Source: Pegea sp. RAD2-039
Taxonomy: Eukaryota; Chordata; Thaliacea; Salpida; Salpidae
Reading direction: 5' to 3'
NCBI GenBank assembly: GCA_034620365.1
Contig: JAQGEQ010000380.1
Coordinates: 62,001 to 126,000 of the forward strand
DNA length: 64,000 bases
Shown here: positions 6,116-60,165 of the stretch, piece by piece
How the letters are laid out: every line of letters starts with the position of its first letter
Numbering within the stretch: position 1 is the stretch's first letter
Translations under genes and position numbers: made by a program
Notes under the pieces: generated by a model
Told to the model about the DNA's origin: nothing
Seen by the model: the letters and a program-made list of their open reading frames with translations, nothing else
The model's database searches: none

Positions 6116-6694
6116 AGATCTTTTGACGTGATGTAAAAATATTTCCATCAGATCTTTTATAGAGGTAGAATATGAATAGATAGAATAGAAAATAAACAAA
6201 CAAATTGTTTGTAAAGAACATTCACTGCTACATAAGTTATAAAAACATCTTCTATTTGTTCACTTAATGTATTTCTATCGCTCTTTTCCTTTCTATCTTA
6301 TTTGTTTCATTTAAATGGGATTTGATTTTAGATATACATTTAGTTTCAGTGAATTCTCTTGCGACAATATTTAATCGATTTTTAATAAAAACAATTTTCA
6401 TCTTCCTTGTTCATGCTAAGTTTCTAAGAAAAAGTAAAATTGATAAAGTTGACATATAAGGGTGAAAATTCATAAAATTATATCTCAAACTAAATCTGGT
6501 TACTTAATTTGAATTGTAGCTGATAATTGTTCAAATATTTCTTGTAAGAATCATTAGTTGAATCACTCTTTCTAATATTTGATGATTTTAACTGATTCAT
6601 TTTCTATAAAAATCGTATTTACTACATACAAACAAAATAAGCCGAATAATTTTATTAAGTCATCTGTATAAAGAAAAGAATTGCACAAATATTT
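6116..6694. other. Intergenic / 3' flank of TRPA gene 1
   Basis: AT-rich sequence without a supported gene. The minus-strand hexamer AATAAA (TTTATT at 6651-6656) lies about 40 bases beyond the stop codon of the neighbouring minus-strand gene and is a candidate polyadenylation signal. Confidence 0.4.
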
Positions 6695-9600
6695 CTACTT
6701 CTTCGATTTACTCAGAGAAGCAAGTTTGAATTCTTCTTGAGTTTCGATGACGTATTTCACACTTTTAGTTAAATGATGTAAGAAATCATTGACTTTATCA
6801 AAAGACTTCACAAACTTCTCGTTCATTTCTTCAATACTTTGATTGCAAAGATTAATTTGTGATTTTAATTCATCAATATTAGAAAGGTTTTCTAAAATAT
6901 TTTCTTTCATAACCGAAAAATCTGTTTTTAAATTCTCCTCTAAGCTTAGAAGTTTTTCTTTGTTCCAGCAAACATTATTTTCAATCTTTGTCAGCCTCTC
7001 CTCCGTATAAGCTTCTTTCTTTTCATTTTCTTTACTTTGAGTGTTTAGAATTTGAATCACATTTCCAACTTGCTCATTACAGTTTTGTAGTTCAGCTTTC
7101 ACTTCAGCAACTGAACTAATTTCTTCTAATAATTTATTACTAGTATTTCGAATCTCTTCTTTGACAGTATCTTTTGAAATTTCAACTTTTTCTTCACAAA
7201 TTGTTAAATTTGACTGCAAAACATCAAATGCTTTACAACGATCTAACAAAGATTCAGAACTTGCAGCAATACAACCCTTCAAACCAATGTTTAGTACTTT
7301 CATTTCTTCTTTACATGTTTCGATATTATCATTTATCTTTTCGATCAAATTCTGATTGCCTTTCCCGACCTCAGTAGAAAGCTTATCAGCAACTTCAGTA
7401 TTATTTTTAATCAGCTGATTGTGATTTGTTCCAATCTCATCGAGAAATATCTCTTTTGTTTCATTTATTTTCTCTTCAAGCTGCTTACAACAGTTGATGA
7501 TATTCTCGTTGATTTCTTTTGAGTTTATGTTTAGTTGGTTTGAAATCTCTGTTTCATTTTTAGTCAATATTGAAATAAGACTTTTATGGCCTTCATCAAA
7601 ATTGTTTTTGCACCAAATTGCTTTCTCTTCCATCTTTTCTTCCAACAAAGTTTGAGATGATTTAATCAACTCTTCAAGTTGTAGTTTGCACTTTTCAACA
7701 TTATCAACACACTTATCTGAAAACTCAGCAACTTTTTCACCCAAATTGTTCTGCTTTTCAGTAAAATATTCCCAAATTTCATCTTTACAAACAGTCACAT
7801 GTTCTTTACAATCTGTGATGTTATCATCGATTGTTTTCTGTAAAATACTTTTGGTGAGTTCTATTTCTTTGCCTGTAATCATTTTACTATTATCAATTAA
7901 CTCGTTACATATCCGAAAGTTGATTTCCATCAGTTCCTTCACTTCTGTGTTGCCACTAACCAATTTTTCTTTGATTTCTTCATCAGTTTGAATTATTTGA
8001 TGATTACATTTACCAATTTTCAAACTTAAATCTTCCAATAATAAATTCTTCATCTGAATAATTTGTTTCAAAACATCAACCCTTGACACGTTCACACTTT
8101 TGTCACAATCAGAGATTTTTGATGAAATCACATCGAGAAATTGTAATCTAGATGTACAGATAGTCGTCGATGCTTGTATTTCACTGATCAACACAATTTT
8201 TGCCTAAAAAAATACTTTCGATAAAATAGAAAAGCTGGTTGAAACTGAAATACCTTTTCTAAGAATTCGTGGGTTTTGTGAATATCGATTCTCAAACTGG
8301 CAACAAGTTGTAAAGTGTTCTGAACTTGTCCTCTTGTTGTGTTTGATTCGTCTTCTGTCGTATATTTTAAAGCAGATTTTGTACTTGAAATTGTTTTGTT
8401 CAACTCTAAGCTAGTATCACTGAGCGTTGCCATAAGATCCTAAAATCTGGAGATGAGAAAGTGACTGAAAAGTTTCAAAAAAAACCTCTGAATAGGCTTT
8501 TGCTTCAGTTCTTGTACTCATCAAAATGAGATCAACTTTTTTAACCCTCTGCCTCAGATCTCCTTGCTCATCATAGATGTCATTTAATCTTGATCTTAAG
8601 TTTGTTAGTGAAGAGATGATTTGATTACTCTCAGAAAGTTGGTTGTTATTCTAAGATACAAAAATTTGAAAGTAGAAGTTGTCGATGATAAAATTTACTT
8701 CCTCAAAGTCATCCTCATGCATCTGATCATGAAACTTCCTCAAGATCGAAGGTTTGAACCGATTCGGATTCAGACGGAAGATCCTAATGATGAAGAGCTT
8801 TAATCTTCCTCTATTATCCTCAATCACTTCTTTTTTTCGCGTAAACCTCCTTCGGACCCAAGAAGGAAAAAAAAATTCAACATCAAGCGAAGAGTCGATC
8901 TGAATGACGAAAATGACGATCAATTGAAGATGGGAGACTGTTTCCATGGATACCTGCATCCCGATTCTTTGGATTGTCGCTTCTTTTTGTATCTCCATTA
9001 TATCACCGACCGCGAGACCCACCTGAGGTATCAAACTTTGAAGCTGAAGTTGAAAGAAGGAAGAACTCACCAATAAATTCATGATAAGGATTGTCATGAC
9101 GATGGAGAAAGTTAAATAAAGAACGTAGCTCGCGACTTTTGTGTAATTCTGAAAGATATTTTCGATGCAGCAACTAGCTTCACTTCACACACTTACTTGG
9201 TCTGCATATCCAGAACTACTAGGGTAGAATTTACCGGAGTAGTCGAGTTCTCCCATCATCATGATGAATGTTGTAACGATTGAATCGTACCAAGTTTCGA
9301 AAACCATCTGAATATGTCACCAAAATTCAAGTTGATAATCAAAATCTTTTAGAAATATTTCAAATGAGTCACCTGATTGCCGAGAAGAATGTAGAACGCG
9401 AGTCCAAACCCGATTATAAAAAAGATAAAAACCATCAAGAACTGAGCAAATGTCATCAGGATCACAGTAAGCATTGTCACATAAATCCCTGCATCCGCGA
9501 GAATCGGTAACTTTTGGATGTGAATTATTAAACCAATCCAAGATAGAAATATTGCAAAAGCAGCTAAACTTTCTTGCCATTCCTGAAGTGACTTTTAAAC

Positions 9601-12600
9601 TTAAGTTTTTAAGAAATAGTTTTGAAACTAACCTGTCGTATACCAGTTTGTGATTGTAGATTGTCGAAGACCGTCAGGTTACTGATGTTGTTACTTGTTA
9701 ATGTCTTTAACCCTGAGTTGAAGCGAAAGTACTCAAAGTTCAAAGTTACCAGAATACACAGCGAATAAAGAAGCAACTCGAGAATTTTCGAAATTTTTAT
9801 CGTTTTTCTTCTAGGAACTACAACACAAATCTAAAAAAGTTGAAATTATTTGAAAGTCTTCAACTTAAAAAAATTTCATCTTTTCAAACCTCAAGAAAAA
9901 TTTGTATTGCTGCATAGAATAAAAGAAGTTGTCTTTCTGTGTTGTGAGTTTTTGGGAGGATATTACATCCTGTCTTCAGATTCAAACTGACCATAATGTC
10001 GTTACGGTAGAAAAAACAAGAAGAACTAAACAGCAAATCAAAAATACATTTTCCAAATTCATTAGATCAGTTTCTTACCTTGTGTTTATTCCTGTTGAAA
10101 TAAACTGAATAAACTTTCTGATTTTTCAGTGGCAAATCATTTTAAACTTTTTATTTAATAATTTATAAACATCTCACCTGTTCGCTCACTATATAGCTTT
10201 TGCCAGTCGATCCGATAAAATTGAGGGGTTAATAAAACATAATGATTCAACATAATGAGAAAAGTTACAAAGAACAGAGTACTTGAGTAGTAGACGTATC
10301 TCACACAATTCTTCCATTTGAAATCTAACAAAGCGGACACCAGTGGGTGAACTAAAAGTTTTTCGCATTTCTCATCCGCCTATATCAAATAATCTTTTAG
10401 ATAAAAGTTGAAGGAGTATTTAGATTAAACCATGATATTTAGTGGATGATTCTTCTTCAATTTACTTGAAGATCTTGAATAAGTATGTGATGAAGATAAA
10501 GGAATTTCGTCTCCATCATAAATCTTTTCAAAAAAAGTTTTATTTTATTTTTCTGAACAATTTTAATCACAAACCGAAACATTTGGTTCCTCGTTTCCAT
10601 TTAGTTGGTTGTTCCTTCCATTATCAGATAAAGAAATCTGTCGGACCATATGCATTTGGTTCAACCATTTTGAACATGAGTAAGTATCATCTAGAAACTC
10701 ATAAACCATGGTCACCTTCAAATAAAAGGAGAAAAATCAGCTGAACAATTTACTTTTCGTTTTATTATTTACAGATTTTTTCAGCAAAGACTCACAGCAA
10801 AATCTTTATCAATCGGTCTCTTCCCATTATCATACATGCATTTATCCAAAGCAATCTCTGCTAAATCAGGCATCTTCCGAATCAACTTCCGCATTGGTGT
10901 GTCAGTGATTCCTACAAAATCAAAGAACTTGATGACTTATATCCACCATTTCTACATTTTACCAGTATTTGGGTTTCGGACCGCGTTTTTTAGTGAGTCT
11001 TGCCATGTGGAATGTTGTATCAACGCATAAGCACATTCTTTGTGTTGAAAATCTAACGCAAAATCTAAAGAGTTTCTTCCATCCGGAGATTTGAAGGCAA
11101 CATCCGCTCTCCACTGAAGAAGTATCCGAACAATCCCCACATGCCCCTTCTTACAAGCGAGGTGCATCGGAGAAACCTAAAAATCTTCAGTTAGAAGAAA
11201 ACCATTTCTGATTTCAAATCAGACTTTAAACTTTTTGATCGGTTGAATTATCGCTCCTGCCTCTAATAAAGCGATCGCGGCTTTCTCGAAGCCGGCAAAA
11301 GCAGCACAATGTAAAGGCGTCCACTGTTTGTTGTTTTTCAGTTCAATATTGGCTCCGAGTTGAATCAGTCTACAAAAAATAGAAATCGAAATATGAAGTT
11401 GTTTGTTTGAAGCTCAAAGCTGGCTTTTTATGAAACCATAATATCCAACTTTGTAATTTATTTAGTGAGTTACATACTCAATAACACTTTTGACGTTTCG
11501 ACCAAGAGCTGCTAGATGAAGAGCTGTGTTGGCTTCCTCGTCAGTACAATTGATTATTGTTCGGTGTTTTAGGATTAAATCTGAGATGATTGAGTTGTGT
11601 CCTTGTAAAGCAGCAACATGTAGAGTTGTTCGATCTGCTTTATTCTTAGCATCAGCAGTGGCTCCACAAAGCTCTAGAAGTACCTTTAGAAGATGCACAT
11701 CAAGATAAAACTCTCAAATCCTCTTTTAAGCATAAAACTAAACCACCTGAACACTTTCTTCATTGCCTTTATTTGAAGCCAAGTGGAGTGCCGTGTTTGA
11801 ATATAAATCTCTATTTTCAACCATATTTCTTACTTCAGGCCTTTTCATCAAAATCTATTTCACAAAAATCAAATTTTTCATTCACAATTTGATTTGAAAG
11901 ATAAAACCTGAATAACAGCAACATGGTTCTCTTCAGCGGCCCACATTAAACAATTTTTTTTATCGTTGTCTACATCTGAAAGATCGATATCATACTCTAG
12001 AAGATGTTCCAGCGTTTCCACATGCCCATAACGAGAAGTTATCAACAAAGCTGTCATATTTTCAGCATCTTTCACGTTTGCTTTAGCCCCACTAACAACA
12101 AACAAAATTGGATGAATGAAAAATGATTAAAACTTCAAAATGTCAAATTACTTTTGTAGTAATAGGTCTACAACTTCATGAGAATTTTGTTTGCAAGCAA
12201 TTGACAGGGGTGTTGCTAAACTTTCATTTTGAATATCAATGTTAGACTTTTTATCAATTAATAACTTGACGATATTCAACTTGTTGGATAGCACAGCGAG
12301 GTGTAAACAAGAAGTCTTTCCAGCCCTACATCTATTTACCATATTACTTAAACCTTCAACAATAAATTAGTTATTTACTTTTACCACAAATCTCAAATAA
12401 CTAACCAGCTGCTTCAGAAATTTCTAGAATATATTTTACGAGATTTTGATAACCACCTTCTACAGCTAAATGAATTGGTAAATTGCCATTAGCATCTGAA
12501 GCTTCTATTAAACTTGCTGCTTCAACTAGAGTCATATCAACCTCAGTTTCTTCTTCAGTTTCTATTGTTACTATAAAAGATAATAAAATAGTTTGAAGAT

Positions 12601-13983
12601 TTACTTCGTTGAGATTGTTTACTATAAATTCTTTTACTTTAATTTTTTAAAATGTTGTGAGTAATTTAAAATTTAATATTTCATTGAAACAGAAATTGGT
12701 TTTCTTTAAACGTTAAACAAAAAGAAAATTGAAACATAAAATGATTGAAGATTTTAAACTTCACATTTTTAACAGATTTAATTTGAAAATAAAATTTTAT
12801 GTGAGTGATTGTAAAAGGTCAAAGATAATTATAACAAATTTATTCCCAAAATTTAAATAATTAAATTATCGACACTTTACTTTCAAACTGATTTGTCTCA
12901 TCATTTCGAGAAGTCTCCTTCCCGTAACTCTGCACTAGAAGTTTTGCGATCTGTTTCATAAAAAATTGGAATTTGTTTTATCTAAAAGTGAAAAAATCAC
13001 CTCCAAATTTCCAACAGCGCAAGCAATATGAAAAGGAGTTAATAATTCAGTGTCTTCCGCTGTGATAAAAGCTCCTTTTTCGATCAGAATTTTCGAAATC
13101 TCTAAATTGCCATTCCAACAAGCATGATGCAAAGGAGTCATTCCCTGGTTGTCAGTATCCTAAAACACAACTTTTGGGCTTTTTGCAAAAAATACCGGGA
13201 CTTTTACTTCGAGGTCAATGCTTGGAAAATTGAGAATATCGTTTACAACAGTCGTGTTTCCGCTAATACAAGCATGGTGTAAGGGGGCAAGTCCTCCTAA
13301 ATCTTTATCCCATAATAGCGCTCCATTCTCAACCAATAGTTTCAACGGATTTTCATTTTTGTTGAGCTGCAAATTTACCAAAACTGATTTTTCAAAGAAC
13401 TTTTGGACATTTAACAATCACTCACGTCATCTAAATCTTTTACTCTTTCTATATTTTTAGCCAGATGATGCAAGGGAGTCAACCCATCTTCATCTTTAGC
13501 TCTTATATCTGATCATTTGTAAACTTTCAGCCAAATATTTCGCTTTTTACACAAACTTTCAAACCTGCTTTGTATTTGATGAGTAATTTCATTCCTTTAT
13601 AAGAATGATTTTTTGCTGCATAATGAAGAGGCGTCAAATCGTACTCGTCGCGTTCATTCGCTTTTTTTCTGCGATTTTTTTCCGATGTGCGAGCCAAAAT
13701 AACTTCGATGGCTTCAGCGTTTCCTTCACGTGCTGCCTGTTACATAAAAAGTTGTGAAAATTTGTGTAAAGACGGAATACTGGTTTCAAACTTCATGAAG
13801 AGTTTTGTTGAGAAGTTCTCCAATTAAATGACTTTGTCGTCGAATTACAGACATTGATGTGCTTGGATGTGGATGCGGAACATCTTCTGAAGACTCGAAT
13901 AGAGTATCTTGAACTGAAGTTAACCTTCTACCAAGGTTGATGAGGCCAGCTGCGAATTCTGAACCTCTTCGTTTCAGTTCCAT
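6695..13983 (-). CDS. TRPA-type cation channel, cluster gene 1, with giant cysteine-repeat coiled-coil tail
   Basis: Split minus-strand gene, roughly 25 exons with mostly tiny introns; ATG at 13983, stop at 6695. Exon 1 ends K-T-L-H-E before the intron. Next come about 16 ankyrin repeats (T-P-L-H-x-A-A type) from about 13.7 to 11.0 kb. Then the TRPA linker T-P-M-R-K-L-I-R-K-M-P-D-L-A-E (about 10.9 kb), membrane helices (10.3-9.1 kb), the pore exon 9195-9307 with M-M-M-G-E-L-D-Y, S6 with M-T-I-L-I-M-N-L-L, and V-G-L-A-V-G-D-I at about 9000-9022. TRPA channels are tetrameric plasma-membrane cation channels opened by irritants or temperature. The tail is exceptional: the last exon (about 6695-8205) alone encodes some 500 coiled-coil residues with 18 cysteines, whereas known TRPA1 tails are short. 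The C-terminus S-K-S-K-K has no PDZ ligand. Confidence 0.88.
7217..8107 (-). repeat. 99-bp coding repeat: nine 33-residue hendecad modules with core cysteines
   Basis: Within the last exon of TRPA gene 1, counting residues from the codon at 8192-8194, cysteines fall at 30, 63, 96, 129, 162 and 195, exactly 33 apart, and again at 294 (30 + 8 x 33). At the skipped positions 228 and 261 there are Ile and Leu. In every 33-residue unit hydrophobic residues recur at unit positions 5, 12, 16, 23 and 27, a 4-7-4-7-4-7 spacing that is the signature of an 11-residue (hendecad) coiled coil. A second cysteine sits at unit position 8 in three units (136, 169, 235). After residue 326 the register slips by six, and further module starts are seen at C333, C372 and C450. 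The DNA copies are diverged, so the repeat is old. Confidence 0.8.
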
Positions 13984-14406: not shown

Positions 14407-17400
14407 TTAAACATTAGTTACTAGTTGATTTTGTAAAACCGCAATTTTCAATTGAATCAAGTCATTCTGTAACTCATTCCATTTTGCAAACCAATTTCGA
14501 TTATTTTCTTCAATATATTTTAGAAGATCACTTGAATCACGCTCCTTCAACCTTTCTTCAATTCTTTTTGTTTGATTAATCAATTCTTCTCCGAGTTGAT
14601 TCCAATTCATACATTGATTATTAACATTATCTTTAACTTTATTAATACTTTCTCCAATCTCTTCTTCAGTACTTTGAAGAAATCTCATCTTTTCATATAA
14701 TTCAAGTTTACTTTTCACAATTTTTTCTACTAATTCTGCTTCAACCTGTTCGAAACAAACTTAATTTCAACAAACTTCTAAAAATACTGCAAACCTTGTG
14801 AAGTTGTTCTTCTTGTGCGCGTGAAACACCTTTCAAATATAGCACAAGATCCTTAGTGGAGCTGACTGCTCCGTGGGTACCAGTAACTTCGGTTTTTGTG
14901 TCTTTAACCTCTATATGAGTATCTTCAATCTTTGTGCGAATATCTGTTCGAGTACTTGATAGGTCGCTCCTTAAAATCTTTCAAACAAAACTAAATAAGT
15001 TGTTAGGTTGTAAAAGTTGAAAATATTTTAACAAGTTATTTTTTCACTTGGCTGTTTTGGTTTGCTTCTTCTTGAGTTTCTTTCAACAATTTTGAAAGCT
15101 TTTGAAGTTTAAAATTTTGATTATTTTGTTCATCTTTTACATCGTCAAGTTTTAAACGTAAATTCGATAAAACTGAAAATATTTTATCCATATCTGAAAC
15201 ATTCTCGACTTGCTCCTGCTGAATAATTCAGTAAACATCAAACAATTTAATAATTCTATTGATTACATCATCATCATCATCTGGTGATAATTGATATTTT
15301 TGAAGAGTTTTGAAGATTGTTCCTTTTTTACAAATATCAAATAAAGAGCTAAAACAAGATTTGTTTCTTTCCGCATTATAAATCGTTTCTCTTCTTCGAT
15401 TAAATTGTTTGCGAAGAAAATTTGGGAGATAAAATTCCATATCAAGGGTAGACCGAATCTGCTTAAAAAACTGTTTATAAAATTTCAATAATTTCTTGAA
15501 TTTGGTAACCTGCAAACCAACTCTTTGTATTGTGGCATCTTCTCTGACTTGCATTATGTCACCCACAGCAAGACCAACCTTTCATATTTCAACAAAAAAT
15601 TAATGATTAAATTATTTTGTAAAAATAGAACTTACCAAAAGGTTCATAATAATTATCGTCATTACAGTGACAAAAGTGAAGAACATTACGTAGCTTGCAT
15701 CTTTAGTGAACATCTGCAAATATTTAACTCAGATTTGATTCAAGGTGAAAAATTTATGTAAAAATTTTACTTGATTATGATATGAAACGTCAGAATTGAA
15801 AAAGCGTCCGGCATAATCCATTTCTCCAACCATCATTACAAACACAGTGATGATCGATTCATGTAAGCTTCCAAACACATACTACAAAATATATTTGTAG
15901 AAAATTAAGTTACAAGCCAGTTGTATGTCCCTAACTTGGTTTCCTGCTAAAATATGAAATGATAAGGCGAATCCGACAATAAAAAAGATCAAAATGACTA
16001 AAAATCTGAGAAAGGTTTTCAGCGTGTTTGTAAACATGATGACAAAGACTCCAAGATTTGGGATCAAGGAAATCTTCTGGAGCATCATTAAGAGATTTAT
16101 CCAAGACAAGAAAACGCAGAATGCTGCGATCTTTTCCTGCCATTCCTATAGACTTAGTAGTTAAGTTTGAAAGTAAAATTTAAGAACTTACTTGACGTAT
16201 TCCAGTATCTTTTTGTAAATTGTTCAAAGCGAAAAAATCGATTTTTGATTTGTTAAAAATTTTGAACTCTTTTAAAAGATTATCTTCTAATTGATAATTA
16301 GTGAAGTTGATTGTAAGTAAGACACTAAAAACATACAAAATGATGAATGTGATTTTGGACAACTTTATGCGCTGTATATTAACCACAAAAAAGACAGCCT
16401 GTAATCAAAAAACAGTTTGTTAGATTCTATATAAAAAGATTTTTCAAATTGCATCAAAATTAATTTTATTTTGTAGCTTAAAGTTAAATATTTAATCCAA
16501 AGATAAAAAAGTGAGAAGTTAAACCCATATTCAAAGTTATATCAAATATAATTCGTAAAAATTCTGCGGGTTTTTAATAAAAAAAACTTAAATTTACCTC
16601 AAAGCTTAACTTGATTACAGCAAAAAAGAAGATGACCAAACGGAGGTTAGATACTTTCTCATTTAAAATCCAGCAACTTCTATTCACATTTTGGTGTAAA
16701 AACAAACATTTTGGGCTAAATAAGTAAAATACTTTCATTAAAGTTTTGCCAAATAGCTACTTTTATAATTCAATTATTTTAAACTATAATAAGTTCTAAA
16801 ATTTTGACAGTTTTTTGACTCTAAATCAAAATTTTTCTGAAGTATTTTAGAAGTTCGATAAATCAAATGTTATAAACAGATGAACATTTTCTTAATTTTA
16901 TAATCCGAGTATTTAAAAACTGTATTTATAAAATGTTTAAATTTTTAAAACTTACGAATAAGCTGAAGATTTTGATTTAAAGTTATCTGTAGAAATGGAA
17001 ATTAAATTTTGTAAATTTGAGATAAGATTTACTCACATACAAAAGACTGACGCGACTCACTCAACTTTATCCAATCAATTGTATAAAACCTGGGTAACAT
17101 TAGAGCGTATATATTCAAGATAGTTAAAAATACAACATATATAAGCAAGTTTGAATAATAAATATATTTTCCAAACTGATTCCATTTACTATTTAATAGT
17201 CCTGTTATGACAGGGTGGACTAAAAGCTGGCGGCATTTTGAAGATACCTTTACACATAATTTAGAAATTAAAGTATGAAGTTACAACTTGCTTTTATTAT
17301 TTTAAAACTTTCAACAGCTTGTAGAAAATATTAAAGTTTTTATTTTGCTCAAATAGATAAACCTTCTTCAACTTATCAGTTTAACTTAAGAAATTGTTTT

Positions 17401-20400
17401 CTTGAAATACGAAACTTTTAACCACAAAGCTGTTGCAATATTTATCAAATTTTTACCATAATTTTTAGAGGATGATTTTCTTTCAAAATATTTTTTGATT
17501 TATTGTATGGGACAGCAGCTTCTAGTAATCTATCATCATCACCATACGCCTGAAAAGAGGTTTTTACAAATTAGTGAAATACAAAACAACAAAACTATTT
17601 TTTGATTGAATTAATTTGCAAAGAATATTCAGGAAACATTTACCTGATATGAAGTATCTTCAACCGGAAAACCTACGTCCGTATTTGACTTGCTAATTGA
17701 ATCTGAAGAAGCGATCCATTCTTTACAAGAATAAGCATCATCCAAATATTCATAAAATAAAGTGACCTGAAATTAAAAACCACAAAATATTGGGACCGTT
17801 ATCACCGCGTAATCACTTCTATTTGCTACAAGATGAAATACTCTTACAGCATAATCATCAGCAACCGGTCTTTTACCATTGTCACTTATACATTTGTTTA
17901 AAACCATTTCCGCCAAATCCGGCATCTTTCTAATCAGGTTCCTCATCGGCGTATCCACTTTTCCTTAAAAGGCAAATTTAGGATTTCTTTATAAATAATT
18001 TATATTTATAATTATTACATTTATGATTTTTATATTCATAATTTTTAAATATGTATTTAAAACCTTTAGAGTTTAGTAAACCTTTTTGTATAAGAACCTG
18101 TATTTTTGTCGTAATTTGCATTTTGTAGAGATAATTTCCAATTGCCATCTTTTATAAGCACCATCACACATTCCTTATGTGCAAAATCCAGCGCTGTATC
18201 GAGAGCGTTCTTCCCGTTTGGATTCTTGAAACGAACATCTGCTTTCCACTCCAAAAGAAGTTTCACCAATTCTGAATGTCCATGTTTACAAGCAAGGTGC
18301 AAGGAGCTCGTCTGCATCTCACAAATTAGTTTTCATTAGCTACCTCATCTCCATCACCTTAATTTTTCCGGTTGATTCAATCTTCGCTCCATTTTCTAAT
18401 AAGATTTTAGCAACTTTCCCCTGTCCATAAGCTGCAGCACAATCCAAAGCTGTCCAGTCCCGAGAATTTTTCTTCTCAATATTTGTACCAAGCTTTATTA
18501 ATCTAAGAAAGTTGAAATGTTGCTTGAAACAATCTGAATATTAAATAGATTTGATGGTTTACTAAAAACAATAGAAACCGGATTGAATAGTTCACAATTG
18601 AATTAAAAGCTTTTAGTAGGAAAGAAATTAATTGAATTTATTATTTTCATCATAAGGTGACAAAACAACAAATATTTTCAACTTTTTAATTTTCAGCACT
18701 TGCTTCAACTTTTCTTTCATTATTTTCAAACCTTTTGTTTTATGAACTGAAACATGGTTTTGAACTTACTCTTCAACGCATTGAGACACACCATCTACAG
18801 CAGCTAGATGTAAAGCAGTATTCCCATCTTCATCAATACTATTGACACTTGATCTATCGTTTACAGTTAATTGTTCTATAACACTATTATGTCCCCCCAA
18901 AGCTGCTAAATGTAGCGGCGTTCTTTCAAAACTATTTTTCACTTCAATAGGAGCAGACAACTTCAGCAGCACCTAAATACAATTCATGTCATCAACAACA
19001 TTAAAAGATTTGAATTTTACTTCAACACTCTCTTCATTTCCTTTTGCAGCAGCTAAGTGTAATGCTGTGTTTTTACAACTATCAGTTTCAAGTAGCATTT
19101 TTGGGTCACATTTTGTTACTAAAACCTGTATAATCGCAACTCACGTAAGAATCAACACGTTTTTGAATAAATAGTTTAACTAACTTCTAGTAGTTCGACA
19201 TTATTTTCTTCAGCAGCTAGCATTAAGCAGGTTTTTTCTTCTCTATTTTTGTCTTTAGTATTAGCATTTTTATTCAATAACAATTTTACGATATCAGTAT
19301 TCCCATATCTAACTGCTGTTAGTAATGGAGTCATATTCATCAAATCTTTTCTTTCCAAATCACACCTTCTATACTTTCATCGTAAATTTACAAAGCTTCA
19401 ATTTTAAAAACAAATTCTTACTTTTCTATAAGATATTGTAATATTTCGATATAATTCAATTGACAAGCCATAAAAGCTGCTGTCGTTAAGTTGCTATCTG
19501 GTGAATCTATAAAAGCACCATTCTTATAAAGAAGTTTTACGATATCTAAGTTGTTTGCTTGAACTGCCAGATGTAGACATGATGTTCCACCAATTCGTTT
19601 TTCATTAGTAAGTTTGGAAACATCTGAAAACAAACTTTTTGGTAATCAGTCAAAACTTGGAATCTGAATTACTTTTATCCTTCATTAAATTGATAAAAAA
19701 TTGAACAATTTCAATATGGCCATTTTCAATTGCAAAGTGAATTGGTAAGTTTTGTTCATCGTCTCTTTCATCAATTAAAGACTTTGTGGTTATGGAAGAT
19801 TTTCCTTTCTTCAACTTATTTTCTTTTAACAAATTTTTTTGAATAAGTTTTTATAAATTGACAGTTTTATAAATAAACCAACTTTCTCTTGATTTCAGAA
19901 AAAAAGGTTCAAAATCGATTTCGACGCTTCTCGAAGCTTTATTTGATGAACTTTCAGATATAGAAATCATCTGAAACTTTTCGGTAAGAAGCTTAACAAT
20001 CTGTAACAAAAATAAAGATCTTCAAACCTCTTCCTATTAGTCGATGACGTCTTATAACTACAAATCTGATGAAGATTTCTCACATTGAGATTTCCTCCAC
20101 AGCAAGCAAGATGAAGTGGAGTGGCTCCATCTTTATCTTTGGGAGTCAAATCACAATTTTTACGGATCAGCATTTGTACGATACTCAAATGTCCGTAAAG
20201 ACAAGCAAAGTGAAGAGCGGTCATTCCCTGATTGTCTTTCAGCTGATGATGAAGCAAGTGAAATTCAGAATGACTTTGAACAGTTAAAAGAAATAAAGAC
20301 AAATGTATAAATGGTCTAAATGTCATCAGGTAAATTATTTTCCTTACCTCGATATCAAGAGAAAAAACTGCCAGTAAGTCTTCAACAACAGAAGTATTTC

Positions 20401-21601
20401 CTTTCGCACATGCATAATGTAACGCTGTCAAACCAGAAAAATCTTTAGTGTTGATTTTTGCTCCGTTTACAATCAGTGGTTTCACGCAAGAAAATTTCAG
20501 TTCCTCATATTCATGCTGTTTAAAGTATCAGAAATATTTGTAAAAGAATACAAAATATTTACAGATATCTTCTCACTTGACTTGAATCACTTAAAACCGG
20601 TTTTTTGTAACTATATTTTGCTACATAATGTAAAGGTGTGAGTCCTTCTTCCCCACAAGCTTCTACATCTTCAACCAATTATTCGATGTTGAAATATCAA
20701 CAGATGAATAAATTTTTGGTCCTTACCTGCCCCATTCTTTATTAGATATTCAATCATCTTGTAATGATGATATCTTGAAGCATAATGAAGCGCTGTCAGA
20801 TAATTATTATCTTTGGAATTTATTCGTCTTTTCTTCAAGCTTTTATTTGTTATTTTATCGAGAAGTTGTTCCAAATCCTTTACTTTTCCTTGAATAGCTA
20901 TCTGATAAATTTATTTAAAGTTTTTCCAAATTTTTCATAAAATTTACAAAACTATTTGATAAAAATTTGTTATCATAAAATTATCAATTTTTATTAATTT
21001 ACTTCTAATTTATTCGAGTGAAATGAATTTATCAACTTTTTTTACAAATTTGTTGATCACTAAAGTTCATCTTAAAAAAGTAAATTGTATAAATATTTTG
21101 TGGAGGAGGGACTTCCTACATTGTGGGAATTTCTACTTCCTTCAACTTTTTAGAACATCCAAAAGCTCAAAAAAAAACTATTTTTTTTAACAATTACAAA
21201 AAAAATGATTTAAAATTGAACAATAGGTTGAGACACTTTTAAAAGTTTTTTTTAGATTTTAGCAAACGAAAAAAATAATTAAAAAAATTCACTTTCAAAA
21301 TATTTTTGAAACTAATTAAAGACATAATAAAAAAGAAACTAAATAGTTTTAAATACAAACAAATTATATTCTAAACATTTACAAGGCTACTTATTCAGAT
21401 TGCTTCACTATAAATAGCTAAACTTAACCAGTGGTTAAAAAAGAAACTTTGATGACATACTTGGTGAATACTTCCATTTCCAAGAGATAATAGATCAGTT
21501 GAAGTTGAAAGTTGTGACTTTTTAGAAAGTAAAACTTCAAGTTCTCTTTCTACAGGAAGATCTATCGCCACATTTATTTGTACCTCTTCAACCTTATCCA
21601 T
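14407..21601 (-). CDS. TRPA-type cation channel, cluster gene 2
   Basis: Minus-strand split gene with ATG at 21601 and stop at 14407. Exon 1 (M-D-K-V-E-E-V-Q...) ends G-S-I-H-Q before an intron of about 550 bp. Ankyrin repeats follow from about 20.9 to 18.1 kb (e.g. L-T-A-L-H-Y-A-S-R-Y, M-T-A-L-H-F-A-C-L-Y-G-H). Then the linker T-P-M-R-N-L-I-R-K-M-P-D-L-A-E at about 17.9 kb and the membrane segments at 17.2-15.6 kb. The pore at 15.8-15.9 kb reads M-M-V-G-E-M-D-Y, S6 ends M-T-I-I-I-M-N-L-L, and V-G-L-A-V-G-D-I is at about 15.56 kb. The tail is a modest coiled coil (last exon about 105 residues). The protein ends Q-L-V-T-N-V, matching a class-I PDZ ligand. The S4-S5 region looks closest to gene 3, suggesting that pair is the younger duplication. 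Ligand or thermal sensitivity cannot be predicted. Confidence 0.87.
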
Positions 21602-22928: not shown

Positions 22929-25900
22929 TTAAACATCACTAGCTGTGAACTTATGAGCAAATGCAGTTTTTATTTCTTGAATGTTTCTATTAATCTCATC
23001 TTTAGCAGATACAAGCAGCTCAGTTGTTCCTTGTAATTTATTGTGAATTTCAGATATCTTTTCAGACTTTCCATCTAAATCCTTTTTAACTTGAAGAATT
23101 TCACTGGAAAGTCTGTCTTCAATTCTTTGCCAAGTATTCATGTTTGTAATCACTTCTGATTTGCTTCGAACCATTCCTTGTTGTAAATTGTCTTCTAAAT
23201 TAACCAACTTTTCAGTTCTTTTAAACACATCTTCATCTACAGACTCAATTTTGTTGTGAAGATTGTTTGAAACCTATTAAAACTGCTTTAAAAACTTATT
23301 TTGAAAATATTAATAAATTAATGAAATTTTATACCATTTAATTTCAAAATCTTTTTAATATAAATTTGGCAATTTTTGTTTGCAACTAAATAATTTGCTT
23401 TACGAATTTACATCAATCAGATAAACATCGAACTAAACAAAAACTGTTATCAAAAATTTTCTTAAATCTTAAAAAAAATTAATTAAAACTTAAATCAAAG
23501 CAAATTTTCCATTTTTGAGTTTTAATCAAAAAATTTAAAGAAAATTGAAAATTAGCAAAAAATCTCCAAAGAAAATTTCTGGTATTTTAGAAGTGAGCAA
23601 AAAAGAAGACATAAACCGCTGTTTGGAATTAAATCTCGAAACTTTTTACCAACTGTAATTCTTACCGATGAAATATGTTCTTCCTGACGTCTAAACTCTT
23701 TTTTTAAATCTTCAAGAACTTGTTGAGTGATGTTAAGTTGTCCTTGAGTCTCTACAACTTCATCATTTGTGATTAACAAATGATTATAAGTTGTTGATAT
23801 CTGATTTCTTAAATTGTCAGTTTTTTCAGCTAAATCTGACTTCAGAACCTAGAAAAAGAAGAAGAAAAGCAAATGGAAGTTGGGATGTACATTTAAATCT
23901 TACATCTAAATCAACTTCACACTGTGTCTTAAAGTCGGAAAGGTTTTTCGTCAAATTTTGGATTTTGTATTTTGATTCACCTTGCTCATCGATCATATGT
24001 TCGAATTTTGTTCGGAGTGATAAGACTACTGATAAAACTCGATCAATTTCCGAAAAGTTCTCAACCTCTTCCTATTTATTCATTTTTTTTTAAATATCAA
24101 AACTATCTTTTCTAAAATCTTACGCAATCCTCATCAATCACAGTTTGAGATGTTTTAAAATCTCTTAGAAGAGCAAGAATAGATGATGAAGAATAAAAAT
24201 CGAAAAATGTTTTCCCTTTTTGCTTAAAAATTTGTCGTCTCCGGGAAAATTTTTTCGAGAGTAAACTTGGAAGGAAAAATTCGATTTCCAAAGCAGAGTT
24301 GATCTGAGAAAAGGTTTTTAGATCTTGTAAAGTAGTAAGAAATCATCTTACTTGTAATCCTAATCTTTGAAGAGTGGCGTCTTGTCGGACCTGCATAATA
24401 TCACCAACCGCCAAACCAACCTAAAAATCCCTCCAAGAATTAATTTCACTCAAAACATATTTCGTTTCACTCACCAACAAATTCATGATGATAATAGTCA
24501 TCACAATCACAAAAATGATGAACATCAAAAAACTGGCATCTCTAGTATATATCTGAACATCATGATATCAAAGAACGAAGTTTAGACTTTTAACTCACCA
24601 TATTGCTGTATTGATTTTCTGATCTGTAAAATCTTCCACCATAGTCTATCTCTCCAATCATCATCACAAAGACGGTTACAATAGACTCTTGCCAACGTTG
24701 AAATAAAACCTAACCGTTGAAGTTTGTAACAAAATTCTTAAAGATTTTCAGTTTTTTACCTGATTACCAATTAAAATACTGAATGATAAAGCAAACCCAA
24801 TAATGAAAAAGACCAAAATAACCAGAAATTGAACAAATGTTTTTAAAGTGTCTGTAAACATGACAATGAAGATGCCAAGATTTGGAATTAGAGGGACGTT
24901 TTGAAGCATAAGTAACAAAGTCATCCACGAGCAAAAAACAGCATATGCTCCTATCTTTTCTTGCCATTTCTACAACATAAAGTCGAATTGCTTGAATGAA
25001 CTTAAAAAAAGCTGAAAGTTTTGTAGTAAGTCATGTTTTGAAGAATATTTCAAATGTAGAGATGATAGAATAAATCAGAGGCTTTCAAAAATGAAAATTT
25101 ACTGATCGAAGATCTTAGAGAAGAAATTAAAACAACTTTTATGAAAAATATTTCTCAAGTTCTTGATTTAAATCTGATTTGAACTATTAGTATTTTACTC
25201 GATGAGAATATAAGAAAGCGAATTATAATAAAAAGTTGTTGAAAAAAAAACTTTTACCTGTCTGATGCCGGTGTCATGCTGTATGCCTCCTAAATTAGTA
25301 AAAGTGGTATAATTGGACGATGCGCTCAAATTTTGGGTTATGTCATAAGCATAGAAGTCACTCGTTAATAAGATGCATAGAAGATAAAGCAATGAGCTAA
25401 TCACTTGCTGCAGCTTCAAGATGCCAGTATTCATTGAGATGAAAAAAACCTGAATAAAAATCAAACTTTTTGATAAATCAATAAATTTTCTTGATATTCA
25501 ATTTTCTAAAATTAAAGCAATAAAAAGATCTGTTAATGTTAAAATGATTTATTAGTTGGTTGAAAGTTCAAAATGTTAATCACCTCTAACATCAAAGCAA
25601 GAATGGAGAGTGAAAGTATTACAAGGCGAAGATGTCTCGCTATTTCACTGATTTCAAAGCATCCAGAATGCTTTAGAAAATTTGGTAAGTCACTTCGAAG
25701 GTACAAACAATTTTCCCTGTCAAGATTCATTCTTAAAAATTGTTGAAAACTTTCTTTGATTTCACTTACTGATGAGTTGATGTAAGGTGGCTGTTGCCTA
25801 CAAACACATAAAAATTGTTACAACTTCTTAGGTTTTAGTTTAAAGTTGCTTCTAGATATTTTGAGACATTTTACAAATATTTTTCAGCAACTTTTTTCCC

Positions 25901-28900
25901 TCCATATAACTAATTTCAATTTTACTTATCTTAACGATGAAAACTATTTCAATCAAACAAAAATTGAACTTCAGAGACTTTCTAGAATTTACATCAATAT
26001 ATTAAAAGGTTCAAAATCATTAAATCCTTGATTGAAAAGTTTCGCTTTTAAATATACTTACTTTAAGATAAGAAATCAATTGTTTTTAGATATATTGATT
26101 TTAAAGAACTATTTTTATTTTTCGTGGACTTCGAAAAAGCTTGTAGAAACTTTTCTTGGATAAATTTTATGATTAAATTTTAATGGTCGACCTTGTTTAA
26201 AACTATAAGTTGTTTATCTGTAATAAGTTTTTTTATTACTTTTCGTTGGCTTATCATCTTAAGTTTTCATAAAAATTGAGCCTTGCGTTTAAACATCAAA
26301 GTTTGTTTTTACATTGAAAGAGAAAGTTGGGAAACTATAAAAGCTTAAAATCTTACTACAAAAGATTTTCAGCAGTAAAAAAACTTAATTTGAAAACATC
26401 TTTTATATTTCGATTATTATTTGAAAAAGTTTAGTTTCCATGAGAAAACCTTAGAAAAAATAAGATAAAAAAAAAACTGTTTGGAAACACTGTTAGTCTG
26501 AAGTGATTATAAATACAAAAAACTTAAAAAATATTACTCACTGAAATTTTTCGATCTTTCCATATTTGTTTTGGTCCAATCAACCATATAAAATCTGGGA
26601 ATCAACATCATATAAGTGTTTAAAAGTAAAAGATACATTGTAAAGAGCAATAAATTGCTGTAATAAACATATCGACTGAAGCGAGTCCATTTGTACGTCA
26701 ACAAGCTTGTCACTAGAGGGTGGACTAATAACTGGCTACATTTAGAGCTGACCTGTAACAAACCATCTTGTAAATATTGTAAATATTTATCATTGACACA
26801 CCATAATATTCAAAGGATGATTTCCTTTCAACACTTTTGGCTTTGCATCATACGAAGTAGCAGCTGTTGTTAAATCATCATTTTCATCATATGTCTAAAA
26901 GGCATTTCGATAATTGAAGAAAGTTTTTAGATTGATTTTTACCTCATTTATATCTTCGCTTAATTCTTTGTTATTTGCTTGATTATAATTACAAGATTTA
27001 CTTAATATTGATGACTCTGATTCAGTCACCCAACTTGTACACGCGTAAGTATCATCCAAGAACTCATAAAGTAAATTGGCCTGTAGATCAAAAAATTAAA
27101 TTTTATTCTGAAATATGTGACAGAAACTTTTCTTTTTTAAATTAATTTTATCTTAAATGAAAACATAATTAAATTTATTGCAAAGATTTTAAAGTTTCAT
27201 TTTCAAAGCTTCACTTATTTTGAAATATAAGAATTTGTACTTACAGTAAACCCATCTTCGAAGGGCAACTTGCCGTTGTAAACAATACATTTGTCAAGAA
27301 CTATTTCGGCCATTTCGGGCATTTTCCGGATCAACTTTCGCATTGGGGTATCCACCAAACCTGAAAGCATCTTCCAGTTTTAAAATGAAAATATTAAAAG
27401 TAAAATTGAAGAATTTGATTTGTAATGATAAGAAATTTCAATAAATTAATTTTCTACATCAAGCAGAAGTTAAATAATTTTAAATTATTAGATTTTTAAG
27501 CTTTTAAAAACCTGTGATTCGGTCTTTACAAGCGTTTCTGAGAGACTGCTTCCAGGTATGATGCTTCAACAATGGTAAGACACATTCCTTATGAGCAAAG
27601 TCTAGTGCGAAGTCCAAAGCGTTTTTACCGTCGAGTGATTTAAATGTGATATCCGCCTTCCAGTCCAAAAGTAGTTGCACGATGTTCGCGTGTCCGCGTT
27701 TACAAGCGAGATGTAAAGCGCAAACCTAGAAGAAGTGATGATTGTTCATTCAACCGCTTGATATAATAATCCAAAGTTATTTCGAAGCTTAAAACAAAAA
27801 GTGAAATAATACAAAGTTGAACAAATATTTATCTTAAAAGTTCAAAAATTTTAATCATTTTTTTTATTTAAATTCTTTCCCGAAAAATTTGAACAAAAGG
27901 AAAATTTTTTATTTAACTTTTGAAAATAAGCAAAATATTTACTGTTTCGAAATTTAACAAAACTGAAGACATAAAAAAGTCAGAAAAAACATCATTTTTC
28001 AATCTTTGAAAAGTAAAAAATATATTCTTAGAATATTTCAAAAGTTTGAAAAAGTATGAAATTTTTGACTAGAAGTTAAAAATGCTTTAAAACTAACCCG
28101 GATTTTTCCTGAAGACTGCATTTTAGCTCCAGCTTTTAATAACTTTAGAGACACTTTTTCCCAACCATTTGCAGCTGCACAATCTAAAGCTGTCCAGTTT
28201 CGACTATTACGAAGTTCCAGATTTGCTCCGTTATTCAACAACCTATTTGTAAAGATCAGAAATTGTTGAAGAGATAAAAGAGTGAAAAACCGACTCAAAG
28301 ACACATTTAGAATTGCCTTCGATGGCCGCTAGGTGGAGCGCTGTATTTCCTTCATCATCAGCACAGTTTAAAATTGAACGATCAGATGAAACGAGGTTTG
28401 AGATGAAGGTGCTGTGCCCGTTTATAGCAGCGACATGTAGTGCGGTTCGATCTGAAGCATTTTTTGCTTCTGTCGGAGCTTTAAGTTCGAGTAAAAGCTG
28501 AAAAGATAGAAATTTAAAATGTGGAATTATTTGTTTTCAATTCTCATCGAACTTTCACACAATCTTCATTCCCTTTCATAGAAGCTAAATGGAGTCCAGT
28601 GTTGCTGTTACGATCTCTACCCTCTAACAGCTTCCTGTCACTTTTTTCCAACAGTAGCTAGAAACACATCAATGAGTTTTTGTTGATCAACAACATCCTC
28701 TTCTTTACCATAATCACTTCCGAGTTGTTTTCTTCAGCAGCTAACATCAAACTACTTTTATCTTCTTGATCAGTTTCACCAAAATCTGCGTGATTATTCA
28801 GAAGAGTTGAGACTATATTAATATGTCCGTTTCGTGAAGCTATCATCAATGGAGTCATCATATCTGAGTTTTTCAACTCAATATTTGCGTTTCTGAAAAT

Positions 28901-30539
28901 TTTATCTTTTTTACAAATTATTTTAAATCATTTCAATCAAACTTTTCGATCAAAAAGTTAACAATTTCCAAAAAGTCATGTTGAGCTGCTATATAAATAG
29001 GAGTTATTTGCTGAGACGTCCTACAATTCACTTCAGCGTCTTCTTCAACCAACATTTTGACAAGTGCTAAGCTGTTAGCTTCTACAGCTAAGTGTAAACA
29101 CGAGTAATCACCAATTCGTCTTTGGTTGGTGATGTCTTTTATATCTGAAATTTTTATTCAGTCTTTATTGAAGAAATGTTGATTAGTGACTGACCATATC
29201 TTTTAGCAGCTTCCAACAAGTATTCAACGATTTCAACGTGCCCATTTTCAATTGCTAGATGAATAGGAAGGTTTTGATCGTTGTCTTTTTCTTTAATAAG
29301 TTCTGCTGCTAAACTCAATGATCTTTTTTTGCTGTTACTAGGACCAGAGATAGTCGATACAACTTTACAAATAAAGGACTTACTAGGAAGCACAATATGT
29401 CTGTATTGAAACTCACCTGTAGTAACCTTTGAAGTATTTAAAAACTTCTCAGCTTCATCAAGCAAACATTTTGCGATCTGAGATGAAATATTTAAATGAA
29501 AAATTGAATTTAATCAAATTATATTTACATCTACGCTTCCTTCCACACATATCAAGTGCAAGGGAGTTGTTGAATCCTTATCCTTACAGTTCAACTTACA
29601 TCCGTTTTGTACCAATTTTTGAACGATTTCAAAATGACCGTATAAGCAAGCATGATGTAAAGGGGTCATACCCTGGTTGTCGGTAACCTGAGAACAGTTT
29701 TGAAGTTATTAAATCAATGTTTTGTAAATTTTCATCTTCTAGTCGATAATACCTCCAAATTGACGCCACCAAATTCCAGTAACTCGGTTAAAAAGCTGAT
29801 ATTTCCGCGGATACAAGCGTGGTGAAGAGCAGTTAATCCTAAATCATCTTGTGATGTTAAACTTGCTCCAGCATTTAATAACAAGAAGAGGCAACTCATC
29901 TTCTCTTCAATTGGAAGATCTTTAGATGACTGCTAAAACAGATGTTAATTTCTGAGTAATTTTTTCATAAATATCTCACCAAAGGTTTGAACTTGCTTGG
30001 ATATCTTGCCAACAAATGCAGAGGAGTCATATTATCTTCTCCAAGAGCTTGAACATCTTTGAAAAAAGTTTGATGGAGTTACAAATGAATCTGAAACTTT
30101 GAAACTAACTTCCATCGTGGCTAATCAAGAGCTTGATTGTCCAATAGTAATGATATCTCGCCGCATAATGTAGAGGTGTGAGTTCCTCTTCATCAAGAGA
30201 ATTTACCTTTTTTCTTTTTAAAGGTTTTGGATATCGTTCAAGAATTCTTTTCATCAATTCATGTTTCCCCTCACGCGCGAGCTTTAAACACAAAAACTAA
30301 ATTGATGTAAACAATAAAAGATTTTCACGAACTTGATGCAGAGAAACGCTTGCTGTGTACTCATTCCCACTCGTCGAAAACAGTGGAGCACCCTGCGAAC
30401 TGTTATTTAAATCGATTACATCAGATTGATCATCAACCGAATATCGGAAAATTGTGCTGAGCTGTTTTTGGATTTGGAAGGAGATGCGTCGAGCGGCGCT
30501 CACTTTTTTGGCAGATTCATTTTTTTCCACATCATCCAT
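22929..30539 (-). CDS. TRPA-type cation channel, cluster gene 3
   Basis: Minus-strand split gene with ATG at 30539 and stop at 22929. Exon 1 (M-D-D-V-E-K-N-E...) ends V-S-L-H-Q at the same place as the exon 1 ends of its neighbours. Ankyrin repeats run from about 30.3 to 27.5 kb (L-T-P-L-H-Y-A-A-R-Y, M-T-P-L-H-H-A-C-L-Y). The linker T-P-M-R-K-L-I-R-K-M-P-E-M-A-E lies at about 27.3 kb, and the first membrane helix at 26.6-26.7 kb. The S4-S5 exon is at 24.76-24.96 kb. The pore (24.60-24.71 kb) reads M-M-I-G-E-I-D-Y, and V-G-L-A-V-G-D-I is at about 24.41 kb. The coiled-coil tail ends in a 99-residue open stretch with no cysteine. The C-terminus T-A-S-D-V fits a class-I PDZ ligand. Introns within the ankyrin and channel parts are mostly under 100 bp, with several of 150-600 bp. 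Confidence 0.87.
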
Positions 30540-40900: not shown

Positions 40901-41851
40901 TCAATTGGAGCATCCTCATCAGAATCATACTGAAATTGCATCATCTTAAATCTAACCGATCACAGACTCTCTCTTCTAACCCACCTCATCTTCGCCTGCA
41001 TCAATTCCTTTTTTCTTCTTGTACTTTGCGAGAAAGTGAAGAGGCGTGACGTCATCTTCTCCTTTTATTTGAACATCTACAAAAATTGTTGTTTAAACTT
41101 TTGGTGAGGCTCTTAAAATTTCCGAAATGAGAAACAGTTGAAAAGATTTTGATCTAAAATTTAATTACTAGCTCCGTTTTTGATGAGGTAACTCATCATG
41201 GTATAGTGATTGTATCTTGTCGCATAATGAAGCGCTGTCAGCTTGCTGTCGTCTTTTGAATTCAATTTCTTCTTTCTTTGTTGTTGAGGAACTCTTTCTA
41301 AGAGTTTGTCCATCAGAACGACATCCGCTTCGCGAGCCACCTAAAAATACTCAAATCTTAAACAATTTTAATCAGAGAAACTCGGAAAGCAAATATGTTT
41401 TATCAATCAAATATTTGAGTATTAAAATCAGGAGATATTAAAGATGAAAAACTATTTAAGTTTTGTTAAAACTTTTTATGAAATTAGAATGACTTTCAAG
41501 ATTTTGGTATTCACGAACAAAAATATAACTTTAAAAAGATTTATTTTTGACTATATGCATGGAAATTTGACTTGAATAGATCTAAGAATGTATCATCAGT
41601 GTTCAATCATTCTCAAGATTTCAAACTATTTGAAAGATAAAGAAGCTTACCTGATGAATAGTTAAGTTAGCAAGTTCAGTAGCTGTGAATATTCTTCCAA
41701 TATCAACCTTGCTCGCAGAAACTTCTGGTTGAGCTGCTGATGAAGTTATATTCTGATTAAACTGACCAACTATAGAGTTCCCGAGAGCTTTAGCTCCTTC
41801 TTTGGTGCTGTTTAAAGCTTTTTCCTTCATTTCAAATGCTTTATCCATCAT
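34942..41851 (-). CDS. TRPA-type cation channel, cluster gene 4
   Basis: Minus-strand split gene with the likely start at the paired ATGs 41846-41851 (M-M-D-K-A-F) and stop at 34942. An in-frame stop at 41891-41893 lies upstream. Exon 1 ends L-T-I-H-Q with donor GTAAGC at about 41650, followed by an intron of about 300 bp. Ankyrin repeats run from 41.3 to 38.2 kb (L-T-A-L-H-Y-A-T-R-Y, L-T-P-L-H-H-A-C-T-R). The linker T-P-M-R-K-M-I-R-K-M-E-D-M-A-E is at about 38.06 kb and the first membrane helix at 37.4-37.55 kb. The pore (36.18-36.30 kb) reads M-T-I-G-E-L-D-Y, unlike the M-M-x of the other three, and V-G-L-A-V-G-D-I is at about 36.0 kb. The tail is coiled coil. Its last exon contains one module like those of gene 1 (C-D-A-K-I-D-E-T-Q-K-K-I). 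The C-terminus F-M-T-K-V fits a class-I PDZ ligand. Confidence 0.87.
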
Positions 41852-46358: not shown

Positions 46359-46558
46359 GTTTGATTAGTGGACCAGTGGTTTGGTTACTGGACTGGTGGT
46401 TTGGTTGGTGGACTAGTGGTTTGTTTGGTGGGCCAGCGGTTTGGTGGTGGACCAGTAGTTTAATTAGTGGACCAGTGGTTTGGTTGGTGAACTGGTGGTT
46501 TGGTTGGTGGACTAGTGGTTTGGTTTGTGGACCAGTAGTTTGGTTGGTGGACCGATGG
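46359..46558. repeat. 20-bp minisatellite, about 9.5 units
   Basis: Tandem array of a 20-base GT-rich unit close to TGGACCAGTGGTTTGGTTGG, with substitutions between units (TGGACTAGTGGTTTGTTTGG, TGAACTGGTGGTTTGGTTGG) and one 19-base unit near the middle. It stands out from the AT-rich surroundings by a strong G+T bias on the plus strand. A Trp-rich plus-strand open frame across it is a by-product of the repeat and not a credible protein. Confidence 0.9.
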
Positions 46559-47086: not shown

Positions 47087-54964
<7,878 letters not shown>

Positions 54965-60146: not shown

Positions 60147-60148
60147 AG
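60147..60148 (+). promoter_or_regulatory. 3' splice acceptor just upstream of the vasa start codon
   Basis: A long T-rich tract ending TTTTTCAG at 60141-60148 precedes the ATG at 60166 by 17 bases. It marks either the end of a 5' UTR intron or a spliced-leader acceptor. The coding region itself has no introns. Confidence 0.5.
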
Positions 60149-60165
60149 TAGAAGTAATTGGAAAT

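Follow-up and report, generated by a model that had tools for sequence, protein, structure and literature searches.

The window analysed here, a stretch of 64,000 nucleotides corresponding to bases 62001-126000 of contig 6 in a genome of 105.7 Mb and 387 contigs that is probably an animal's, to judge by its TRP channels and short introns, carries four TRPA-type channel genes in tandem on the minus strand. The gene that concerns us, g1 (6695..13983), has 28 exons encoding 1845 residues, and all 27 of its introns are bounded by GT-AG. This is a home-made splice model with hand corrections, which is in frame and without an internal stop, and whose borders are uncertain at some exons (around exon 7 and at the small exon 18). 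The predicted protein has ankyrin repeats (Ank_2, 2.7e-90, 297.5 bits, above the Pfam cut-off) and an ion-transport domain (PF00520, Ion_trans, 31.9 bits against a cut-off of 25). Compared with solved structures, its channel part matches TRPA1 chains best (about 3e-35), ahead of TRPV3 (6e-7). When the ankyrin repeats are included, NOMPC (5vkq) comes first at 1.9e-79 and TRPA1 second at 1.7e-76, an order that results from NOMPC's own ankyrin repeats. The scores thus agree with an earlier note on this DNA, which had taken the channel to be of TRPA type. Structure-sequence matches place the S5-pore-S6 exons of g1 at 9071..9582 (9582-9373, 9307-9197 and 9148-9071) and the TRP-helix exon, which follows S6 (VGLAVGDI...), at 8954..9022, all on the minus strand.

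Upstream of g1 and on the same strand lie the paralogues g2 (14407..21601), g3 (22929..30539) and g4 (34942..41851). Their upstream exons are partly uncertain; in the full models some transmembrane exons are absent or wrongly placed, and only the tail and pore exons were drawn on. A fifth TRPA-type gene, g5, is found on contig 76 (L011/L012, about 388622-395665) and has a single 58-residue tail exon followed by a stop; downstream of it is an ORF that looks reverse-transcriptase-like by eye (L012 2834-3349). Over the pore region, g1 is 56, 53, 55 and 45% identical to g2, g3, g4 and g5, the last from a partial model. Searching the genome with the TRP-helix exon gave 8 matches at E <=1, one of them on contig 22 at E 0.49, and the gene counts are lower bounds. 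Ion_trans has at least 131 matches in this genome (150 of 160 candidates scored), with tight runs on contigs 3, 6, 13, 96 and 293 that represent either many-exon channel genes or tandem copies. Elsewhere in the window are a leucine-rich-repeat protein at 276-1175 (plus strand, LRRC47-like by eye), an array of a 20-base unit at 46358-46553 (9.9 copies, within a larger period of 99 bases), protein kinase pieces followed by a coiled coil at 47087-54677 (minus strand, ROCK- or MRCK-like by eye), and a single-ORF DEAD-box helicase at 60118-62067 (plus strand, Vasa-like by eye) with 14-residue tandem repeats near its C-terminus, which match the 42-base array at 61845-61985.

Exon order is common to g1-g4, in that the TRP-helix exon is followed by a linker exon and then by tail exons A, B and C. 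In g1, exon A (8486..8650, minus strand) encodes 55 residues and exon B (8254..8439, minus strand) 62 residues, both without Cys. Exon C (6695..8203, minus strand), the last exon, is open throughout and encodes 502 residues with 18 Cys and no Pro, compared with 112, 114 and 62 residues and 1, 0 and 1 Cys for the last exons of g2, g3 and g4. Given that exon C is far larger than its counterparts in the paralogues and that its link to the channel is read from genomic DNA, the exon could derive from a separate gene or a mis-assembly, in which case the tail would be no part of the channel. However, exon C is joined to exon B by a 50-nt GT-AG intron in phase 0 (8204-8253), which would leave little room for a promoter, the exon order is the same across all four genes, and an AATAAA (6651..6656, minus strand), a candidate signal by sequence match, lies 38 nt past the exon C stop codon. 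We therefore rejected a separate gene on the grounds of paralogue exon order, the short in-phase intron and the AATAAA past the stop, and consider this origin highly improbable. Because the four tandem paralogues share this layout, exon C is, as judged by position and homology, part of the channel, which upholds the assignment made in the earlier note. If the intron at 8204-8253 were retained, the protein would end after 21 extra residues as a short-tailed form like the paralogues.

Like TRPA1 and TRPA1-like channels, g1 combines ankyrin repeats, an ion-transport domain and a TRP helix, and it has an additional segment at the site of the TRPA1 coil. By exon order that site falls in exon A; the structure-sequence match ends before this exon. 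The TRPA1 coil is tetrameric in structures (PMC6386368, PMC10073219), and the isolated coil is reported to tetramerise only at tens of micromolar (PMC6386368). The two differ in length, as g1 continues for 645 residues past the matched TRP-helix region, whereas the TRPA1 chains among the matches listed continue for 58-131 depending on the construct (99 being commonest, and 102 in chain 7ykr). The best period of exon A lies at 3.43-3.47 in each of the five genes (g3, p 0.004; g4, p 0.022; g1, p 0.07; g2, p 0.12; g5, p 0.37). Taken each alone, g1 exons A and B have no significant helical period (p 0.07 and 0.11), and the same is true of several of the tail exons in g2 and g4, so that a coil running unbroken from the pore into the tail is no more than a possibility. 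With A, B and C combined, g3 has a significant period, g2 a borderline one (p 0.044) and g4 none that reaches significance (p 0.064), and the paralogue tails are less regular than that of g1.

The regularity of the g1 tail is that of a hendecad repeat. Numbering exon C from codon 8194-8192 as residue 1, residues 1-297 (7304..8194, minus strand) comprise 27 unbroken hendecads, or nine 33-residue units, in one register and without an indel. Hydrophobic power at a period of 11/3 is 18.3 against a mean shuffled maximum of 3.9, with none of 2000 shuffles as high, and power at 7/2 is 0.3; the 11-residue period proposed previously is thus sound. Position 1 is hydrophobic in 26 of the 27 hendecads and position 8 in 18, with Cys in 7 more, while position 10, on the opposite face, is hydrophobic in none and charged in 78%. 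If the core is read as 3-4-4, its third position is position 4, where the residues are small or polar and three are Cys. With respect to the canonical a-d-e-h core, a and h are strongly hydrophobic, d is small, polar or Cys, and e is mostly polar. Hydrophobic residues had been described at positions 1, 5, 12, 16, 23 and 27 of each 33-residue unit, which is correct when the ladder Cys is counted as 1 and is equivalent to 1, 8, 12, 19, 23 and 30 when counted from residue 1.

Within this register, Cys residues form a ladder with exact 33-residue phase at 30, 63, 96, 129, 162, 195 and 294 (7313..8107, minus strand; codons starting at 8107, 8008, 7909, 7810, 7711, 7612 and 7315), each at position 8 of every third hendecad. 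The two skipped rungs are Ile at residue 228 (codon 7513) and Leu at residue 261 (codon 7414). A second set in phase with the same period lies at position 4 of the hendecad (residues 136, 169 and 235, all Cys; 7490..7789, minus strand), and residue 202, its missing member, is Gly. Both ladders and the substitutions at the skipped rungs had been read correctly in the earlier note. The span that it gave, 7217..8107, is right at the 8107 end; the last ladder codon is 7315-7313, so the other end is about 100 bases too far. Twelve of the 18 Cys of exon C are found in residues 1-297, with seven in the ladder, three in the second set and two (13 and 236) in neither, and the other six (308, 320, 333, 372, 409 and 450) lie past residue 297.

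The arrangement is unlikely to have arisen by chance. When 18 Cys were placed at random among 499 positions, a six-rung ladder of any period from 5 to 59 appeared in 0 of 20000 placements, so that the 33-residue Cys period is significant under the type of shuffling check previously suggested for it, and six or more Cys pairs at the best of lags 10-59 occurred in a fraction of 0.00035 of 20000 placements. Under the strictest null, in which seven Cys are dealt among the 27 position-8 sites, the probability that all fall in one third is 1.2e-4. In residues 1-297, 10 of the 12 Cys occupy positions 4 or 8 (4e-5 for the best two classes), and Cys is present at position 8 in 7 of 27 hendecads and at position 1 in none.

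The 33-residue unit is carried largely by these Cys. Lag scores peak at 33, 66, 99 and 132 (z 7.8, 7.5, 7.1 and 5.8), with lags 11 and 22 at 5.1. After removal of the pairs that hold a Cys, lags 33, 22 and 11 are nearly level at 5.8, 5.5 and 5.3, indicating that the 33-residue signal comes mostly from Cys. When the 27 whole 11-mers were rearranged at random, the 33-residue unit stood out at z 5.7, with 0 of 2000 permutations as high; the same permutation without Cys gives z 2.8 (P 0.006), mainly from position 5 (z 5.5) and to some extent from position 4 (z 2.1). Consistently, column 27, which lies three residues ahead of the ladder Cys, has a hydrophobic residue in 5 of 9 units, compared with 0 of 9 for column 16 and 1 of 9, a Cys, for column 5. 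The 33-residue unit is thus composed of three non-equivalent hendecads, and is real though weak without the Cys.

The nine units share only about 15% identity, and of their 33 columns that of the ladder Cys is conserved best, in 7 of 9 units, where the next best column reaches 5 of 9. At the DNA level, identity at lag 99 is 0.393 compared with 0.315 (SD 0.030) for in-frame lags. Where two residues 99 bases apart are the same, their codons are identical in 20 of 39 cases, compared with 49% at other lags, and synonymous sites between units look saturated. If the tail arose from an amplified 99-base unit, this amplification would be old and the Cys would have outlasted nearly all else, which suggests that the ladder Cys may be under selection.

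From about residue 298 the period changes. The distal tail (residues 298-499; 6698..7303, minus strand) has a period of about 3.55, with power 17.1, and a 39-residue unit; its best lags are 39, 67, 78 and 117, and when the sequence is laid out in 39-residue rows, every one of the five rows has hydrophobic residues in columns 4, 11, 29 and 32. Cys 333, 372 and 450 are in 39-residue phase with Cys 294, while 409 is off by two and 308 and 320 do not fit. This occupation of three of the five sites after 294 has P 2e-4 for period 39 and 0.048 over any period of 11-59, and the 39-residue Cys phase is therefore marginal and suggestive only.

Helices built on 11-residue repeats do not always coil. In lipid-binding helices, of which apolipoprotein, synuclein and perilipin 4 with its 33-residue repeats are of the 11-residue kind, the polar face is usually positive or neutral and the discriminant D is well above 0. 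The g1 tail resembles these in having three 11-mers per 33-residue unit, as perilipin 4 does, and residues 23-193 of exon C match PF01442 at E 4.9e-5, as might be expected if the tail were an amphipathic helix lying on a membrane. However, that match scores 23.5 bits against a cut-off of 90, the apolar face is narrow, and residues 1-297 have a net charge of -19 and a D of -0.08. Perilipin 4 is moreover a lipid-droplet helix of a different composition, and the charge of the g1 tail speaks against such a helix. We therefore rejected a lipid-binding helix on the basis of the sub-cut-off Apolipoprotein profile and the negative charge, and consider it very unlikely. Ankyrin repeats, which are also 33 residues long, were rejected because no Ank family matches exon C at E <=1. 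The remaining Pfam matches to exon C were likewise below threshold (CaMBD, E 0.09; PsbP, E 0.59). Comparison of exon C with the sequences of solved structures gave 3 matches, the best at E 0.14, and Foldseek with a 175-residue model gave 6 matches at E <=10 and none at 0.001. Searched against its own genome, whole exon C found only itself at E <=0.001, and none of the tail exons in g2-g5, the other four TRPA-type genes found, has the Cys ladder. The tail pattern occurred in 5 stretches of viral contigs, none of which was confirmed, and weak PADLOC matches to JetC (8.6e-5) and ZorA (4.3e-4) are taken as shared coil periodicity.

The reading that best accommodates these observations, to which we assign a probability of about 0.6, is a stalk that lacks proline, extends over tens of nanometres as a right-handed coiled coil and has Cys in its core, where it is kept in the third hendecad of the 33-residue unit. 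The last exon of one of four tandem TRPA-type channels would have grown into a tail of about 500 residues that is proline-free and probably helical. Over its first 297 residues the hendecad helix would run without interruption and most likely wind around the equivalent tails of other subunits as a right-handed coil of about 45 nm; beyond residue 297 a coil of 39-residue period would add about 30 nm. Taking 1.5 A for each residue, the length is about 5 nm for 33 residues and about 75 nm for 502. The simplest function would be that of a rigid cytosolic stalk or tether, which may fix the distance between the channel and a partner or couple the channel mechanically. AlphaFold2 with the single sequence of whole exon C gives mostly helix in a poor, low-confidence model (mean pLDDT 53), and for residues 123-297 the best of five single-sequence models has a mean pLDDT of 76, with the other four at 63-68. 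The best model contains helices at 29-99 and 103-174 (model numbering), and the helix is broken in places in both this and the whole-exon model. These predictions indicate helix propensity and, as single-chain models, are silent on pairing.

Some features count against such a stalk. The canonical a-d-e-h core is only half present, with positions 4 and 5 mostly not hydrophobic, and the 33-residue similarity beyond the Cys is modest. The earlier note had envisaged a tetramer with its core Cys stacked along the coil. The apolar stripe covers 2 of 11 positions and is narrow, which would not favour a four-stranded core; because of this stripe and the small or polar position 4, two-stranded contacts fit at least as well as a tetramer, although the strands might begin as a bundle of four and then separate into pairs. 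Hendecad coils have been surveyed by Martinez-Goikoetxea and Lupas (2023), who reportedly described families of proteins made mostly of hendecads and repeat amplification as their origin; the g1 tail is likewise mostly hendecads, a comparison made through the citation alone. According to PMC6131620, long hendecad pairs form the stalks of rotary ATPases, where right-handed coiling gives rigidity in the direction of rotation. The peripheral stalks (b2, EG) thus resemble the proposed g1 stalk as hendecad, right-handed coils serving membrane complexes, but they are unrelated proteins and two-stranded, EG is about 14-15 nm long, and the passages considered here mention no Cys ladder (PMC6131620).

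What the Cys contribute to the stalk is a separate question, on which two refinements, both compatible with the stalk, can be ranked. The first is packing, in which Cys, as a small apolar residue, fits the position-8 layer of the third hendecad and is inherited from an ancestral 33-residue unit with no chemistry involved. Packing is consistent with the substitution of Ile and Leu at 228 and 261 and with the confinement of Cys to position 8 rather than position 1, as expected if the layers differ in room. It accounts less well for the retention of Cys, rather than Ala or Val, in 7 of 9 units despite low overall identity, and we hold it as a tentative first choice, a little short of even odds.

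The second is thiol chemistry, in which disulfides between the core Cys of neighbouring strands, or their reaction with oxidants or electrophiles, would stiffen or loosen the rod and change gating. A redox- or crosslink-sensitive rod had been suggested in the earlier note. The concentration of Cys at positions 4 and 8 and the conservation of the Cys column are in keeping with a redox sensor. However, the cytosol is reducing and buried core thiols are slow to react, Cys may also be just a small core residue, and the last exons of g2, g3 and g4 have one Cys or none, so the cluster as a whole needs no Cys there. TRPA1 is a cysteine-reactive channel (PMC6386368, PMC10199097), in which AITC modifies C621, C641 and C665 (PMC10199097). 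With these residues placed by counting along the chain, the aligned g1 residues are Thr, Cys and Asp in a weak alignment of 11-12 bits, and the first site reads TPMR also in g2, g3 and g5, the g4 model lacking that exon start. Because two of the three human electrophile Cys appear to be replaced in this weak alignment, canonical electrophile sensing by g1 is doubtful, and electrophile sensing by its tail is hypothetical. A redox or electrophile sensor is accordingly ranked after packing and seems unlikely. A graduated rod, in which two to four core Cys at every third hendecad are joined as disulfide or metal-thiolate rungs that set stiffness and gating, is more speculative and rather improbable. 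If true, reversible rungs would occur at steps of about 5 nm, widening to about 6 nm in the distal tail, and would replace the lost electrophile Cys of TRPA1.

In the open-licence literature covered, no paper was found on TRPA and hendecads together, and a search combining hendecad, ion channel, C-terminal and coiled coil returned no title on TRP channels. Within that literature, the novelty lies in a TRPA-type channel with a probable extended hendecad-coil tail and a regular Cys ladder. Among the five TRPA-type genes found, g1 is the only one with so long and exactly repeat-graded a tail, whose length would carry it well past the channel itself, and the last-exon lengths of 62, 112, 114 and 502 residues suggest that repeat amplification may lengthen the terminal exon of a single member of a tandem array. 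The gene would thus offer a natural test of the effect of a cytosolic rod on a TRP channel, and of why Cys is retained at regular core layers.
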